DNA from: a virus
DNA length: 64,000 nucleotides
Direction: 5' to 3' (one strand)
IMG/VR virus record: IMGVR_UViG_3300020219_000016
Coordinates: 1 to 64,000 of that record
Shown one piece after another: positions 1,906 to 40,682 of this stretch. How positions within the stretch are numbered: the stretch's first letter is position 1; each line of letters starts with the position of its first letter. A program made the translations under genes and the position numbers. Below the pieces are notes generated by a model. It searched no databases, was not told where the DNA came from, and was given only the letters and a program-made list of their open reading frames with translations.

Positions 1906-2532
1906 ATGGCTCAATACACATTGCCGGCAACCGGCCAGTTAGTAGACACGAATTCTGGTGCAGCGACAGATGCTACCCAGCGCCTCATTACCGCGAGTAA
2001 TTCGCCGGAGGTGGTGAGCGTGGCGTCCTTGGATACAAAAACGCCATCACAGGTCGCACACGGCACGGCGGATGCCGGGTCACCGCTTAAAGTTGGTGGT
2101 GTGGCAAGAACTGCATGGCAAGCGGCAGTGGCAGGAGCAAGCCGTGTAAATGCCAGTTACGACAAATACGGTCGGATGCTTATCGCCAACAATCCACGGG
2201 ATCTGCGGTCAGCACAGCACACAGTGATCACAAGTAGTGTGGCTGAGACAACGATTATCACAGCGGGTGCGGCTGGTGTGTTCAACGACTTGTCGGCATT
2301 GATTATTTCCAACACGTCAGTTACGGCGTGCAATGTGACAGTAAAGGATGCGACGGCAGGCACAAATCGATTCGTCATTGCAGTGCCGGCGGGTGGAACT
2401 GTTCAGGTCGTAGTGCCATCGAGTGACGCTCACAAGCAAGCGGCTGCGGCTGCGAACTGGACGGCAACATGCAGTGCCTCAGTGGCGTCTATCTCAGTCA
2501 CGGCCATGTTTGTGGCTAACGTTGACGCTTGA
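1906..2532 (+). CDS. Putative virion structural protein
   Basis: The protein has 208 residues, is very low in charge and dominated by A, T, V and S. It opens with MAQYTLPATGQLV and ends with a run of TATCSASVASISVTAMFV strands. This composition is typical of small capsid-decoration or tail-associated proteins in phages with no solved function. It has its own upstream promoter-like motif. Confidence 0.6.
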   Translation: MAQYTLPATGQLVDTNSGAATDATQRLITASNSPEVVSVASLDTKTPSQVAHGTADAGSPLKVGGVARTAWQAAVAGASRVNASYDKYGRMLIANNPRDLRSAQHTVITSSVAETTIITAGAAGVFNDLSALIISNTSVTACNVTVKDATAGTNRFVIAVPAGGTVQVVVPSSDAHKQAAAAANWTATCSASVASISVTAMFVANVDA

Positions 2533-2560
2533 TTTGCGTGTCGTTACGTGGAGTGGATAA

Positions 2561-2983
2561 ATGACGATACTGCTTTTAATGGGTGCTCCGGACGTGACAC
2601 CCGTTACGGTCACGGACAATGCACTAGCAATCTTCAAAGCTGCTGACTTCTCATATCAGTTCCGCGTGATGACTGTTGCTGGTGTGGGCGTGGATATCAC
2701 GAGTGCGACGTTCAGTGGCATGTTTCGCTGGCAGTATGCGGATGTGGCACCAGTGTTTGACCTGTCTGCGTCAGGGATATCGATAGTGGTCGCTGCTGGC
2801 GGTACGGCGAAGATTGTCATTACGAGCGCAGCAACGTCTGCGGCGGTGGTGCCGACAAATGTTGTTCAGGATGTGTTCTCAGGCAGCATCCCGATTTATT
2901 ATGACATTAACATGACGTTGAGTGGTGTCAAATACCGCGTTCTGCGAGGTGTTGCGAAGTATTACCGAAGTGCGTTGCCGTAA
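2561..2983 (+). CDS. Putative structural protein, baseplate-like
   Basis: This 140-residue beta-rich protein (VTVTDNALAIFKAADFSYQFRV start) resembles the N-terminal adaptor of some baseplate or receptor-binding upper proteins in overall pattern only. It is followed closely by the membrane/lysis cassette. The assignment is weak. Confidence 0.5.
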   Translation: MTILLLMGAPDVTPVTVTDNALAIFKAADFSYQFRVMTVAGVGVDITSATFSGMFRWQYADVAPVFDLSASGISIVVAAGGTAKIVITSAATSAAVVPTNVVQDVFSGSIPIYYDINMTLSGVKYRVLRGVAKYYRSALP

Positions 2984-2997
2984 TTGGAGATTGAAAA

Positions 2998-3458
2998 TGG
3001 CTGATAAGTTTCGAGTGATGTTGTTCGGGATGCTGACTTCCAAAAAGGCGTTGGCGACGGCGGCTGGCTTGATCGTGGCGAGTCTCGGTCGATATGGGCT
3101 TGGCATTCCGGAAGACACAGTAATTCAGATTCTCGGCATTCTGGCGTCGTTCGTCGTTGGTCAGGGTATTGCAGACATCGGCAAGGTGGCTGTGCCTGCG
3201 ACGTTTGTCGAAGCCTTGAAGGCGATGGTCGTGACGCTCTGTACTGACAAGAAGTCTCTAGCGGCGTTGGTAGCGATTCTGGTGACTACGGCAGGTCGCT
3301 ACGGGCTTGGGATTCCTGAAGACATGGTTCTCAAGTTGATCAGTTCGTTGAGCGTGTACATGGTCGGCCAGGGCGTGGCTGAAGTTGGCCAGAAGGCTGA
3401 TCCTGTAAGTGGCGGTGTTTCGTCTGGGGCTGTGGTGGTGAATGTAAGGGGGCGATGA
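2998..3458 (+). CDS. Membrane protein with duplicated hairpin, holin candidate
   Basis: The start is the ATG after GGAGATTGAAA; a longer frame upstream overlaps the previous gene and lacks a ribosome site. Two halves repeat the same unit: KKALATAAGLIVASLGRYGLGIPED near residues 13-37 and KKSLAALVAILVTTAGRYGLGIPED near residues 80-105. Each unit is followed by an amphipathic LxSxxVGQGxAxxG segment. The short hydrophobic hairpins, 153-residue size and position ahead of a peptidase and a lipoprotein suggest a holin or pore-forming lysis protein. This is inference from architecture, not homology. Confidence 0.55.
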
Positions 3459-12091: not shown

Positions 12092-12171
12092 GGGTCAGCT
12101 AGCTTAGAGGTAGAGCGCCGCGTTGTACCGGTAGTACGCGGAGGTCGGTGGTTCGATTCCATCCTGATCCA
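12092..12171 (+). tRNA. tRNA with 14-nt anticodon loop
   Basis: All arms are visible: acceptor GGGTCAG/CTGATCC (one G-T pair), D arm GCTT/GAGC, anticodon stem CCGCG/CGCGG, variable loop AGGTC, TpsiC stem GGTGG/CCATC with loop TTCGATT, and discriminator A. The anticodon loop TTGTACCGGTAGTA is 14 nt instead of 7 and contains the palindrome TACCGGTA. The rest is tRNA-Thr-like. CCA is not encoded. Decoding identity is unclear because of the insertion. Confidence 0.65.
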
Positions 12172-34755: not shown

Positions 34756-35556
34756 ATGGTTCAACCAATCAAGTGGCATGGCGGAAAGTCGTATCTATCA
34801 GCCTGGATAATAGGGAATTTTCCTGATCGCAACAGTTATACGCACTACAACGAAGCGTTCGCCGGTGGATTGTCAGTGCTGTTCGCACATGATCCAGATG
34901 GCAAGTCGGAGGCCGTAAACGACCTAAATTCAGGGTTGTCCGATTTCTGGTTCATTCTTTCCACGACACCGGAAGCAATGATTCGCGAATTATGGGCGAC
35001 GCCTTTATCTCAGGAAGTCTGGGAGTCTGCGACTGAAATGCGAGCCGATGACGATCGCATGAAACGAGCGACCGCATTCTTTGTTCGTTACCGGCAGTCA
35101 CGACAGGGACTTGGAAAGGATTTCGCGACTCCAACGACACGAGTACGGCGAGGAATGAATGAAAACGTGTCTGCCTGGCTTACAGCAGTCGAAAGTCTGC
35201 CTGAAGCCCATGAACGGCTACGTCGCGTGGAAGTTCGGAACATGGACGGCATTAAGTTCATAGAGAAGTACGATCACGAAAGCGCATTATTCTATCTCGA
35301 TCCTCCTTATGTGCATGAAACACGTGTGACAACGAAAGATTATGAATGCGAGATGTCAGTCGCAGATCATCTCCGGCTGCTGGAAGTTCTCGTGAAACTG
35401 AAAGGCAAGTTTCTGCTGAGTGGATATGACAGCGAGATGTACAGGCGGGTTGCTGATCAGAATGGGTTCCGGAAAGTCGAGAAAGAGATCGACAACAAGG
35501 CGAGCAGCAAGGATGTAAAAGAGAAGAAGACAGAGTGTCTGTGGATGAATTATTAG
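34756..35556 (+). CDS. dam: DNA adenine methyltransferase, D12 class (Dam-like)
   Basis: IKWHGGKSYLSAWI is the D12-class motif I and YLDPPYVHE is the catalytic DPPY. 266 residues with the C-terminal LLSGYDSEMYRR segment. It would methylate adenine in DNA, likely against host restriction. Confidence 0.88.
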   Translation: MVQPIKWHGGKSYLSAWIIGNFPDRNSYTHYNEAFAGGLSVLFAHDPDGKSEAVNDLNSGLSDFWFILSTTPEAMIRELWATPLSQEVWESATEMRADDDRMKRATAFFVRYRQSRQGLGKDFATPTTRVRRGMNENVSAWLTAVESLPEAHERLRRVEVRNMDGIKFIEKYDHESALFYLDPPYVHETRVTTKDYECEMSVADHLRLLEVLVKLKGKFLLSGYDSEMYRRVADQNGFRKVEKEIDNKASSKDVKEKKTECLWMNY

Positions 35557-36391: not shown

Positions 36392-36840
36392 GTGATTCAA
36401 TGTGGGGTAAAATGCCTGTCGTAAAAATTGGCGGAAAGGTAGTACACGCCAGTAGCATGGTATTTGATCCAGGCATCCGTTTATCCGAGAACAACGGATC
36501 GATTTATAGGCTTCAAAAACCAACTCCGTCAATCACGATAGCCGTCTCAATAGGTGACTACGAATTGTATTCAGAAAACCATGTGAGACTTGTCTTCGCG
36601 ACAAAGAAGCGGTGGAAGTTCCCTGACGACAGATTCGTTTCCTACGATCAGTCTGATGAGTCATGGTGCAGGTATTTGGGCATCGGCCACGAAGTGGAAT
36701 ACAATCCGGTGATCGAAATGCAAAACGCATTCGTTGAAGACGCGGATTACGATCGAGTTCGTTTCGTGGGCAGTATCGAACATAAAAATTGTGACGTGGA
36801 CAGTTCCTGTGTCGAGTCTTTGATTGGCGGGCAGTCGTGA
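36388..36840 (+). CDS. Hypothetical protein
   Basis: GTG 36388 overlaps the GNAT stop. 150 residues, beta-rich, no motif recognised. Its end overlaps the helicase GTG start. Confidence 0.45.
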   Translation: MSDSMWGKMPVVKIGGKVVHASSMVFDPGIRLSENNGSIYRLQKPTPSITIAVSIGDYELYSENHVRLVFATKKRWKFPDDRFVSYDQSDESWCRYLGIGHEVEYNPVIEMQNAFVEDADYDRVRFVGSIEHKNCDVDSSCVESLIGGQS

Positions 36841-38534
36841 GCGAATCCGGAATTCACTACAGAGACTATCAGCAGCGAGCGGTTGATGCTGTGTGGTCCC
36901 ACTGGGATGCTGGTGTGCGGAGCACGTTGTGTGTGGCTGCGACAGGCACAGGTAAGAGCATTTGTTGCGCTGGTATCGTAAACAGGATGCTTGAAAGTTC
37001 ACGGTTCATGTACATCGTGCATCGTGACGCGCTGGCCAAGCAAGCTGTGAAACAGTTTCGTAAGTTCACTGATCGGACAATTGCCGTTGAGATGAAGCAA
37101 GAGGGCATCGGACGTAATCACGACGGCAGCGCTCAGATCATTGTCGCAAGCGTGCATTCATTGCGGTTTCGCCGAAAGAAGTACGCGAAAGATGCGTTTG
37201 ACTTCGTGGGTACGGATGAAAGCGACAGGTTCGCCGGCAATACCTGGGCTGAGATCGTCGGATACTTTGAGGCTCAGCATCGGATCGGGTTTACGGCAAC
37301 GCCACATCGGCATGACGGCGTTAAACTGATCGGTGAAGGCTGCGAGTTCGATTCGATGGCATTCTGCTATCCGATTGAGGAAGGCGTTGACAACGGCTGG
37401 ATCGTGCCGTTCAGGTGGCAGGTTGAGCATTGCCGCGACATTGATCTGGAATCGATCGAGCTCACAGGAACAGGCGACTTGTCACCTGGTGGCGTAGAGC
37501 GGGAAATGTCCAAAGATCCCGTGGTACAGTTCATGGTCCGCAAAATGATTCATGTCGCGCAAGGCAAGCAGGGCATGCTATTCTGTGCGTCGGTCGATCA
37601 GGCTCACGCTTGCAGCCGAGAGTTCCATAAGCAGGGTGCGACGGCAGTAGCGATCACGGGAGACACGCCAGAGTTCGTACGTGATTACCTGGACCGTGAA
37701 TTCAAGTCTGACAGGGCACAGTTCATCTGCGTGTGTGAAATGCACGTGGAAGGCTACGACCATCCAGCGATTCAGGTTGTGGGCATGGGGCGTTTGACGT
37801 GCTCATGGCGTAAGTATGTGCAAATGGGCGGTCGTGGATCGCGCACGATGGGAGAACCTGTTGGAGCGACGGCAGGGGAACGTCGGGCGTGGATAGCAGC
37901 ATCGGAAAAGCCGCACTGTACGATACTCGACTTCGTTGGCAACAGTACGCGCCACAGCATGATGTTCGGCATTCACCTGATGGGCGGGCAGTTTACGCCG
38001 GAAGAATTGGCCGAAGCTGTTCGGCTGGTGACGGATCAGGGCAAGGCGTTCAATCTGGAACAGGTGGAATACGACGCAAAGAAGAATGTGGCGGCACGAC
38101 CGAAGTCAATGACAGTGAGTGAGTTCAGTTTCAACGACACGGCTGAAGAGCGCAGGTTTACTCGCAACCATCGGGCAGATCCTTTTGAGATCCTGCAATT
38201 GGATAAGTCGGCACCGCAGAGAGTGATAGCTGAGGAAGACACTTACGGTGCTGGCTGGAGATCGGCACGCGAGTTTTTGGTAGAAAGTAAGATCCCGGAG
38301 AGCGACATCGGTAACTTGTGTCAGTATTCTATCGTATATCTCAGGGATGAATTGAAGCGACGTTCGCGGGAGGGGTTGTGTACGTTTCCGCAGGCGATGA
38401 GGCTTTACAATCTGGGGTATGATTGTGGCGACATGACGTATCGTCAGGCGAGAGACAAGATTATCGCAGCACGGGCGATAAATTGGCTGCGACCTGTGAA
38501 CGACGGGCCAAATAAGAGGTTTGTGAACCGATGA
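36837..38534 (+). CDS. SF2 DNA helicase
   Basis: RDYQQRAVDAV (Q-motif-like), Walker A AATGTGKS, motif II TDESD, motif III FTATPHR and motif VI QMGGRGSR are in order. Motif II is DESD rather than DEAD/DEAH. 565 residues; the C-terminal 150 residues are unlike known domains. GTG start coupled to the gene before. Confidence 0.8.
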   Translation: MSESGIHYRDYQQRAVDAVWSHWDAGVRSTLCVAATGTGKSICCAGIVNRMLESSRFMYIVHRDALAKQAVKQFRKFTDRTIAVEMKQEGIGRNHDGSAQIIVASVHSLRFRRKKYAKDAFDFVGTDESDRFAGNTWAEIVGYFEAQHRIGFTATPHRHDGVKLIGEGCEFDSMAFCYPIEEGVDNGWIVPFRWQVEHCRDIDLESIELTGTGDLSPGGVEREMSKDPVVQFMVRKMIHVAQGKQGMLFCASVDQAHACSREFHKQGATAVAITGDTPEFVRDYLDREFKSDRAQFICVCEMHVEGYDHPAIQVVGMGRLTCSWRKYVQMGGRGSRTMGEPVGATAGERRAWIAASEKPHCTILDFVGNSTRHSMMFGIHLMGGQFTPEELAEAVRLVTDQGKAFNLEQVEYDAKKNVAARPKSMTVSEFSFNDTAEERRFTRNHRADPFEILQLDKSAPQRVIAEEDTYGAGWRSAREFLVESKIPESDIGNLCQYSIVYLRDELKRRSREGLCTFPQAMRLYNLGYDCGDMTYRQARDKIIAARAINWLRPVNDGPNKRFVNR

Positions 38535-39823
38535 ACTTCTACAACGACAATGATCCCTTTGCGGCTGAGTGGCTGCAGTTGCTGATCGATGGTGAAGCGA
38601 TTCCGAAAGGTAAAGTTGATGGTCGGTCAATCATCGAAATTACAGCAGCAGACGTTCTGGGATACCGACAGTGCCATTGGTTCGCAGGCGTTGCAGGCTG
38701 GCCAGAAGCCTTGCGAATTGCAGGGTACGGCAGTGCAGACGGGATATGGACAGCCTCAATGCCTTGTCAACCGCTTTCGAGTGCCGGTAAACATCACGGT
38801 GAGAAAGATGAACGACACCTCTGGCCAGAATTCTACCGTCTCGTTAGCGAGTGTCGCCCTGCAATCATTATTGGAGAACAATCTGCGAGCGCGGATGGAC
38901 GTGAATGGCTTGATGGAATATCGCTTGATCTGGAAGAGGTGGGATATGGGGTCGGGGCGTCAGATTTGTGCGTTGCGGGGATCGGCTCGCCGCATATCAG
39001 GCAGCGAATCTATTGGGGCGCTGTTCGGATGGCCGACACCGAATACGATGCCGGATGCGCCGAACATGTCACAGAATCGCGGGGACGGTGTGCGAAATCG
39101 GGAGACACCTCAGAGTGTGAAGGGGCTTGTCGGATGGCCGACACCGATCGTGAACGACAGTCGCGGCGGGAGAAACAGTACGGCTGTGAGAAGCAATCCG
39201 AACAGCAAGCATCACGACGGGATGACACTGGTGGATGCAGTGAGTCTGACAGGCTGGCCGACACCGCGAGCAGTAACGGGCGGCGCGGAAAGTGCGGAAA
39301 GAAAACAGGAACTTGGCAGGACGGTGAGCGGCGGGTCGGATCTGCAGGCAGTTGCGCAGTTGACAGGCTGGGGAACTCCGAGAGTGACAACGAACGGGGG
39401 TCAAGGATCAGTAAATCGTGCGACGGACGGCAAAGCCCGACTGGAGGATCAGATTCAAGGGTTGACGGGATGGGTTACGCCATCAGCCAGGGACTACAAG
39501 GACACTCCGGGCATGTCACAGACAGGGATAAATCCGGATGGGTCGGAGAGAACGCGACTGGATCAGTTGCCGCGTCAAGTGCATGGTCTGATTTCAGGAT
39601 CGTCGGATGCCTTGACGGCAAGTACAGGCGTCTTAGCGCCACAGATGAGCCGTTGGTTGCAGGGATTCCCCGAAGCATGGGATCGTTTGAGCCCCGGATA
39701 CAAGGAATGGCAAAGCGTGCAAGACGCAATCGTATCGGCAGGTTGAAGGGCTACGGAAATGCCATTTGCCCACAACTTGCCGCAGTTTTCATTCAGTCAT
39801 TTATGGACGCAGTCAGCCATTGA
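38531..39823 (+). CDS. dcm: Phage C5-cytosine DNA methyltransferase
   Basis: NDNDPFAAEWLQLLIDGE, CHWFAGVAGWPEALR, MPCQPLSSAGKHHGEKDERHLWP (catalytic PCQ; shown as separate pieces), IGEQ and GIGSPHIRQRIYW match phage Dcm proteins. The middle is low-complexity with repeated RMADT/RLADT words. The end LKGYGNAICPQLAAVFI is the usual motif X. A second long frame overlaps almost all of it. Confidence 0.85.
   Translation: MNFYNDNDPFAAEWLQLLIDGEAIPKGKVDGRSIIEITAADVLGYRQCHWFAGVAGWPEALRIAGYGSADGIWTASMPCQPLSSAGKHHGEKDERHLWPEFYRLVSECRPAIIIGEQSASADGREWLDGISLDLEEVGYGVGASDLCVAGIGSPHIRQRIYWGAVRMADTEYDAGCAEHVTESRGRCAKSGDTSECEGACRMADTDRERQSRREKQYGCEKQSEQQASRRDDTGGCSESDRLADTASSNGRRGKCGKKTGTWQDGERRVGSAGSCAVDRLGNSESDNERGSRISKSCDGRQSPTGGSDSRVDGMGYAISQGLQGHSGHVTDRDKSGWVGENATGSVAASSAWSDFRIVGCLDGKYRRLSATDEPLVAGIPRSMGSFEPRIQGMAKRARRNRIGRLKGYGNAICPQLAAVFIQSFMDAVSH
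38808..39746 (+). CDS. GW-x-TP repeat protein encoded inside dcm (alternative frame)
   Basis: The frame starting MNDTSGQNS reads 312 residues within dcm in another frame. It contains five GWPTP/GWGTP/GWVTP words, a conserved-looking SLLENNLRARMDVNG, RQICALRGSARR and a C-terminal SRWLQGFPEAWD. I recall similar proteins annotated next to phage methyltransferases. GGTGAGAAAG stands before the ATG. A longer start at 38589 is possible. Confidence 0.5.
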   Translation: MNDTSGQNSTVSLASVALQSLLENNLRARMDVNGLMEYRLIWKRWDMGSGRQICALRGSARRISGSESIGALFGWPTPNTMPDAPNMSQNRGDGVRNRETPQSVKGLVGWPTPIVNDSRGGRNSTAVRSNPNSKHHDGMTLVDAVSLTGWPTPRAVTGGAESAERKQELGRTVSGGSDLQAVAQLTGWGTPRVTTNGGQGSVNRATDGKARLEDQIQGLTGWVTPSARDYKDTPGMSQTGINPDGSERTRLDQLPRQVHGLISGSSDALTASTGVLAPQMSRWLQGFPEAWDRLSPGYKEWQSVQDAIVSAG

Positions 39824-39831
39824 GCGATAAT

Positions 39832-39843
39832 CGTATATGCCAT
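39832..39843 (+). promoter_or_regulatory. Conserved CGTATATG promoter-like motif, copy 9
   Basis: CGTATATGCCATACAGTGG is followed by GGAAGTA and ATG 39858, so the motif sits 15 nt from the start codon. It shares 19 bases with copy 10. Confidence 0.65.
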
Positions 39844-39857
39844 ACAGTGGGGAAGTA

Positions 39858-40682
39858 ATGCCAACGTCAGTTGAAGAAAGTTCCAGTCTGCCGTTGGATC
39901 AAATCGTCTGCGGTGACAACGTCGCTGTACTCAGTACGTTTCCGGATGCGTGCATTGATCTCGTGGTGACATCGCCGCCGTACGATAATTTGCGCACTTA
40001 TTCATCTGGTAAGCCGATGAGTGAGTTATGGGACTTCGAAGGCGTGGCTCAGCAACTGTGGCGAGTTATCAAACCGGGTGGCGTTGTTGTTTGGGTGGTG
40101 GCTGATGCGACGGTTGACGGCAGCGAGACGGGAACATCGTTTCGGCAGGCGTTGCGGTTTATGGATATCGGGTTCAATCTTCATGACACAATGATCTATT
40201 TGAAAAACAGCTATCCTTTTCCGCCATCGAATCGTTATTACCAACAATCGGAGTATATGTTCGTGCTAACAAAAGGAAATCCTGCGACGTTTAACGGATT
40301 GGTACAGCCTACTCAGTGGCGCAAAGATACAAATGAAGTCAGTACGACAAGGCAGGCAGACGGATCGACGAAAGAAATGCAGTATGAGAAAGGGAAAGAA
40401 ACACGATTGCGTGATAACGTGTGGAAAGTTGATACTGGCTTTATGCGGACGACGGGCGATAGAATCGCGTACAACCACCCTGCCATCTTTCCAGAAACCA
40501 TCGCCCGCGATCATATCCTTTCATGGTCAAACGAAGGCGACGTCGTTCTCGATCTGTTCAACGGATCTGGTACCACGTCGAAAATGGCACGAGAAATGGG
40601 CAGGCGATACATCGGAATTGAAGTCAACCCAGACTACTGCAAGATCGCAGAAAACAGGCTGGCGCAGCAAATCTTGTTTTAG
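39858..40682 (+). CDS. N4/N6 DNA methyltransferase, beta class
   Basis: Motif IV TSPPYD comes first and motif I LDLFNGSGTT last, the order of beta-class N4-cytosine/N6-adenine enzymes. DNVAVLSTFPDACIDLV precedes TSPPYD as usual. 274 residues. ATG 39858 is chosen over 39837 because the latter lies in the promoter motif. Confidence 0.85.
   Translation: MPTSVEESSSLPLDQIVCGDNVAVLSTFPDACIDLVVTSPPYDNLRTYSSGKPMSELWDFEGVAQQLWRVIKPGGVVVWVVADATVDGSETGTSFRQALRFMDIGFNLHDTMIYLKNSYPFPPSNRYYQQSEYMFVLTKGNPATFNGLVQPTQWRKDTNEVSTTRQADGSTKEMQYEKGKETRLRDNVWKVDTGFMRTTGDRIAYNHPAIFPETIARDHILSWSNEGDVVLDLFNGSGTTSKMAREMGRRYIGIEVNPDYCKIAENRLAQQILF

Follow-up and report, generated by a model that had tools for sequence, protein, structure and literature searches.

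In a 64,000-nucleotide stretch of viral DNA (the window; positions 1 to 64,000 of the 71.9 kb IMG/VR record IMGVR_UViG_3300020219_000016), the gene annotated as dcm is overlapped almost completely by a second open frame. Judging from the sequences of the two frames and their relatives, the pair very probably encodes a split C5-methyltransferase, in which a catalytic subunit, alpha (the dcm frame), and a separately translated subunit, beta, carrying W-x-TP recognition modules and motif IX, would be assembled in trans. Reading of the DNA target by this methyltransferase most likely falls to beta, a protein that usually goes unannotated. The same arrangement is seen in hundreds of phages and prophages, N15 and epsilon15 among them. 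The two frames and the motifs of alpha are as follows:

38531..39823, plus strand: alpha (dcm), putative catalytic subunit of a C5-cytosine methyltransferase, 430 amino acids, with motifs I, IV, VI, VIII and X
38681..38701, plus strand: alpha motif I, FAGVAGW, read in the translation
38762..38770, plus strand: alpha motif IV, PCQ, including the catalytic Cys, from the translation and a Pfam match
38873..38881, plus strand: alpha motif VI, GEQ replacing the usual ENV, read in the translation
38993..39007, plus strand: alpha motif VIII, HIRQR, read in the translation
39749..39793, plus strand: alpha motif X, GYGNAICPQLAAVFI, from the translation, starting right behind the beta stop
38589..39746, plus strand: beta, the other open frame, in +1 phase relative to alpha, from the list of open reading frames (ORFs), matching phrog_1008 (E 3.5e-25) and phrog_31772 (E 1.8e-12)

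The dcm frame, described as intact in an initial annotation made from this sequence alone, was indeed a single open ORF from 38531 to 39823. It matched PF00145 (E 4.4e-15, above the cut-off) and phrog_363 (E 9.4e-58), its residues 72-163 matched M.HhaI, and motifs I, IV, VI, VIII and X, by which a C5-cytosine DNA methyltransferase is recognized, were all present. A complete lone enzyme would also hold motif IX and a target recognition domain (TRD) in the same frame between motifs VIII and X. Alpha does not, and no motif IX-like segment was seen in the translation of the window's alpha frame. The second frame ran for more than 300 residues without a stop, as had been reported, being open over 38589-39746 and giving 385 amino acids from the first ATG at 38589 or 312 from the ATG at 38808, where the sequence MNDTSG begins. 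Its GW-x-TP words start at 39027, 39132, 39252, 39366 and 39468, and the RMADT, RMADT and RLADT words of alpha start at 39026, 39131 and 39251, one base before the corresponding GW-x-TP words. One repeated DNA family underlies both sets of words, in agreement with the earlier observation that they arise from the same DNA.

To judge how often such a frame would be open by chance, the dcm protein was kept fixed and its own synonymous codons were shuffled, with the codon usage of neighbouring genes as an alternative null. The stretch 38589-39743 was open in 2.4% of trials with dcm's own codons (mean 2.7 stops) and in 0.24% with those of the neighbours (mean 5.3 stops); for 38808-39743, the values were 10.8% and 0.6%, respectively. 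The +2 frame of the window's dcm contains 28 stops. Because this openness is just mildly unlikely (P 0.024 to 0.002), the second frame in a single window is only suggestive, and these values would fit a frame left open passively, as a by-product of codon bias and of the conservation of dcm, and giving no protein. The same explanation draws on MNDTSG, which mirrors the conserved DERHLW codons of dcm. The initial annotation had regarded MNDTSG as a conserved-looking start, which did not hold for the start codon itself: codon shuffling predicted an ATG exactly at this position in 63 of the 185 loci, and it was present in only 29. The conserved look of MNDTSG is partly imposed by the DERHLW codons, and the candidate starts of beta are the ATG at 38808 and the upstream ATGs at 38619 and 38589. 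For the reality of the second frame, we regard the homologues, not the single window, as decisive.

A search of viral contigs for the second protein returned 42 loci, and at least 545 were found with a beta profile; a profile search of bacterial genomes found 253 relatives, chiefly in Proteobacteria. In every locus of the two beta-profile searches, beta shares its DNA with a methyltransferase, always in the +1 phase, with single indels breaking the frames in a few, and 231 loci hold both alpha and beta complete. An unbiased test was provided by searching with the dcm-type (alpha) protein of phage K1ind2, without use of beta. Stops in the second frame of close homologues had been named as the observation that would count against it, and none of the complete relatives found via alpha alone lacked beta, which was present in the same +1 phase in 40/40. 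In those of these relatives that allowed placement of both motif anchors, the +1 frame had no stops and the +2 frame had 7 to 26. Ordinary methyltransferases with motif IX in frame had no beta.

Selection was assessed in aligned close relatives by counting substitutions according to their effect in both frames, using 47 disjoint sequence pairs. The pairwise count is a simplified, OLGenie-like one, without averaging over multiple-hit paths, and since the sequences of a clade are related, disjoint pairs lessen but do not remove the effect of kinship. Across the overlap, dNN/dNS for beta (substitutions nonsynonymous in both frames relative to those synonymous in beta only) was 0.37 (0.31-0.42), versus 1.58 (1.42-1.73) for the +2 control, whose ratios above 1 stem from mutual constraint of the frames and serve for comparison only. 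In the linker, from motif VIII to 120 nucleotides before the end of beta, the beta ratio was 0.31 (0.25-0.39), and the corresponding ratio for alpha (dNN/dSN, relative to substitutions synonymous in alpha only) was 0.92 (0.80-1.02). Variability at alpha codon positions 1, 2 and 3 of the linker was 0.261, 0.141 and 0.122, with the highest value at position 1, the wobble base (position 3) of beta. Upstream of the overlap, a single-gene pattern was seen, with position 3 most variable (0.304) and a ratio of 0.89 in the second frame. Across the whole overlap, alpha had a dNN/dSN of 0.47, its constraint being limited to the two ends.

The pattern was the same in each of five clades tested apart. Purifying selection, the mark of a dual-coding pair, was thus found in both frames, on beta in every clade and on alpha at the ends of the overlap, and together with the retention of beta in homologues this supports the earlier suggestion of a real dual-coding gene pair. 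Because beta is constrained where dcm evolves almost neutrally, we infer that the second gene is real and shapes the linker; over this region, about half of the gene, the substitution patterns indicate that beta, rather than the annotated dcm frame, determines the sequence. Strong purifying selection on beta where alpha is nearly neutral speaks against a passive by-product, as do the unbroken presence of beta beside a stop-rich +2 frame in the relatives found via alpha and a copy of beta outside any overlap (locus L023, below). We consider a by-product to be extremely improbable.

The motif that alpha lacks appears to lie in beta. A profile built from the C-terminal segment of window-type betas only was run against 1,257 ORFs and matched the betas of N15, Fayden, JC01, Bas76, and Lacticaseibacillus, Microbacterium and Paenibacillus phages. 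Its next matches (E 0.003-0.006; first evident wrong match E 0.87) fell in the dcm frame of methyltransferases from Gordonia and Mycobacterium phages, at a site that precedes motif X by a few tens of residues. Because this position in the actinophage enzymes is the place of motif IX, we take the C-terminal segment of beta to be motif IX. In the DNA, it preceded motif X of alpha in 196 of 196 loci, at a median of 65 nucleotides.

The recognition modules were likewise found in either frame. In Gordonia phage Gudmit, one module sits in the alpha frame at the canonical TRD position, between motifs VIII and IX, and the same module is in the beta frame in SchottB (74% to Gudmit, E 7e-18). The enzyme is also cut between frames in different ways. 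In the window type, alpha holds I-VIII and X and beta holds the TRD and IX; in SchottB and ReT1v-2, alpha holds I-VIII, IX and X and beta the TRD only; and in Gordonia phage Float294 (L322), one of two overlapping frames holds I-VIII and the other TRD, IX and X. In a natural fusion (L023 and L097), alpha, with I-VIII and X, continues in frame into beta and the two do not overlap, and the N-terminal part of beta in L023 is located after motif X of alpha. Together, alpha genes without motif IX, the motif IX match, modules in either frame and the fusion point to beta being part of the same enzyme.

These loci also bear on a model in which ribosomes shift into the +1 frame after motif VIII, translate TRD and IX, and shift back before motif X, giving one chain and no separate beta. 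The canonical order I-VIII, TRD, IX, X in the DNA of all 196 loci is what such a model expects, and so is the near neutrality of alpha from motif VIII to the last ~100 nucleotides. However, in the ~190 nucleotides before motif VIII, which would never be translated in the beta frame under this model, beta had dNN/dNS values of 0.41 and 0.53 (control 1.33 and 1.91). Two separate shifts would be required, none of the known slippery sequences recurred close to motif VIII, and the fusion in L023 carries the N-terminal part of beta behind motif X. Ribosomal frameshifting was rejected as the main explanation on account of the selection upstream of motif VIII and the lack of a recurring slippery sequence, and we judge it to be very improbable.

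Beta of the proposed split enzyme has a common layout, with an N-terminal helix and hairpin followed by 1 to 8 W-x-TP modules and a terminal L-N-P-x(4)-R-W-L-M-G-x-P-x-E-W. The 686 modules have a median length of 38 amino acids and fall into discrete types (29 with at least 5 copies), and because the types occupy differing places in the arrays, we conclude that modules are exchanged. In the window, beta is composed of:

38844..38987, plus strand: N-terminal domain, predicted by AlphaFold2 as a helix and a beta hairpin (residues 13-60 from 38808)
39027..39131, plus strand: module 1, GWPTPNTMPDAP..., from module typing
39132..39251, plus strand: module 2, GWPTPIVNDSRGGRNSTA..., of the same type as a module of Gordonia phage Gudmit
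39252..39365, plus strand: module 3, GWPTPRAVTGGAESAERKQELGR..., of a type present in 11 loci
39366..39467, plus strand: module 4, GWGTPRVTTNGG..., from module typing
39468..39632, plus strand: module 5, GWVTPSARDYKDTPGM..., plus the stretch to motif IX, from module typing
39633..39683, plus strand: motif IX-like segment, LAPQMSRWLQGFPEAWD, from the profile match to the actinophage motif IX site

Module 2 shares 63% identity over 38 amino acids with this module of Gudmit (E 5e-18), and module 5 belongs to the commonest type, with 86 copies in 77 loci. The N-terminal domain overlies motifs VI-VIII of alpha, and in this part the predicted local distance difference test score (pLDDT) was about 76-89 and dNN/dNS among homologues was 0.41-0.53.

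Several results weigh against a split methyltransferase. Mean pLDDT was low, 59.5 for the window's beta and 64.5 for a minimal beta (L014). A Foldseek search of the beta models against the PDB gave no match at E≤0.001, and the beta profile had no match among PDB sequences. In a profile-profile comparison with canonical C5-methyltransferases, beta fell on motif IX with a probability of 0.7%, which is not significant. No universal start codon or Shine-Dalgarno site for beta was conserved among the homologues. The placement of the TRD also differs from that in the nearest known system, as described below. Pfam and NCBIfam gave families matching the dcm frame only and none for beta, so that beta is without a match in these collections and in solved structures, as might be expected if it were a real protein with another job (anti-restriction, regulatory or toxin), unrelated to methylation and nested in dcm by chance. 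Such a role would leave unexplained the strict tie of beta to alpha genes without motif IX, the motif IX match, the modules found in the alpha or beta frame and the alpha-beta fusion, and we consider it very improbable.

The small subunit of M.EcoHK31I is encoded within the large one, in another frame. C5-methyltransferases made of two polypeptides include M.AquI and M.EcoHK31I, and fragments of single-chain enzymes can complement each other (PMC3404938). In M.EcoHK31I (YGGCCR), the large subunit carries motifs I-VIII and X and the small subunit motif IX (PMC3404938), and the window pair, likened to it by this published motif layout, is divided in the same way. In contrast, the TRD of M.EcoHK31I is predicted on the large subunit (PMC3404938), whereas here the W-x-TP modules, 1 to 8 in number and exchanged, are on beta, and the linker of alpha has a dNN/dSN of 0.92. 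In M.AquI (CYCGRG), the division into two polypeptides falls between motif VIII and the C-terminal region (PMC3404938), a cut that Float294 shares in overlapping frames; the window's alpha differs in retaining motif X, and its overlap is nearly complete. In Bacillus phages SPR, SPbeta, phi3T and H2, the C5-methyltransferases have several recognition domains in a row, and each domain confers a separate target (PMC8936443). They resemble the window system in being phage-borne with several tandem recognition units, which in the window would be short exchangeable modules, but they are single chains in one frame. Because these tandem domains have separate targets, each module of beta may bring a target of its own.

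In the enzyme we propose, alpha would bind S-adenosylmethionine and supply the catalytic cysteine through motifs I, IV, VI, VIII and X. Beta would be made from its own initiation inside alpha, in the +1 frame, and would contribute the helix-hairpin domain, the variable W-x-TP target-recognition units and motif IX. The two would join in trans, beta taking the role of the DNA-reading "small domain" and its modules setting the specificity. The order in the DNA would remain canonical (I-VIII, TRD, IX, X), with the TRD-IX stretch in the +1 frame. Such a gene could have originated when the TRD-IX stretch of a canonical gene slipped to +1 through compensating indels and was retained by internal initiation, and the phage may use the enzyme to shield its own DNA from host restriction. 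A broader proposal is that these widespread phage methyltransferases keep their specificity in a nested, out-of-frame, modular subunit, changing target by module swaps, with the linker frame of alpha dispensable and modules and motif IX moving between frames; we hold the case for this to be evenly balanced. A literature search of open-licence papers found none on this overlap in phages, and what appears to be new is its breadth, with N15 and epsilon15 included, the modular beta and the exchange between frames.

If so, hundreds of "dcm" genes of phages and prophages are probably annotated as a complete enzyme though they are half of one. Alpha expressed alone may fail or act oddly, and methylome predictions from alpha would be wrong. 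As an example of gene overlap, the pair would be both clean and deep, with the sequence of roughly half of the gene set by the hidden frame and not by the annotated one. In PHROGs, the window proteins fall into separate families, 363 (alpha) and 1008 and 31772 (beta), all of which are labelled DNA methyltransferase; the entries record neither that a single gene gives rise to both in two frames nor what beta does. In one E. coli prophage, RefSeq gives alpha only, and in the E. coli cS100a prophage (L327), it gives two incomplete methyltransferase pieces, although alpha and beta are both open throughout. For Cronobacter phage JC01 (L315) and Rhodococcus phage ReT1v-2 (L326), the depositors named the beta frame and alpha was missed or left as a stub.

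Some loci depart from the simple pair. In L146 and L148, which are identical sequence on two contigs, and also in L021 and L041, a single linker indel displaces the two frames together, giving ORFs for the N-terminal part of alpha, a chain of N-terminal beta and C-terminal alpha, and the C-terminal part of beta. One phage contig (L201:108-1176 and 2203-3229) carries a tandem double copy of the overlapping pair, and in L216 (3303-3305) the alpha linker has an in-frame stop with beta intact across it.

Three DNA methyltransferase genes lie within a 6 kb part of the window (34756-35556, 38531-39823 and 39837-40682), with a helicase at 36837-38534 between them; the gene at 39837-40682, downstream of dcm, is a second DNA methylase gene matching PF01555. 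ARAGORN called a tRNA-like gene at 12092-12171, its type left undetermined by a two-base anticodon call. The protein encoded at 14331-15107 matches nucleoside 2-deoxyribosyltransferase and phosphofructokinase-like PHROG families and is possibly a fusion.
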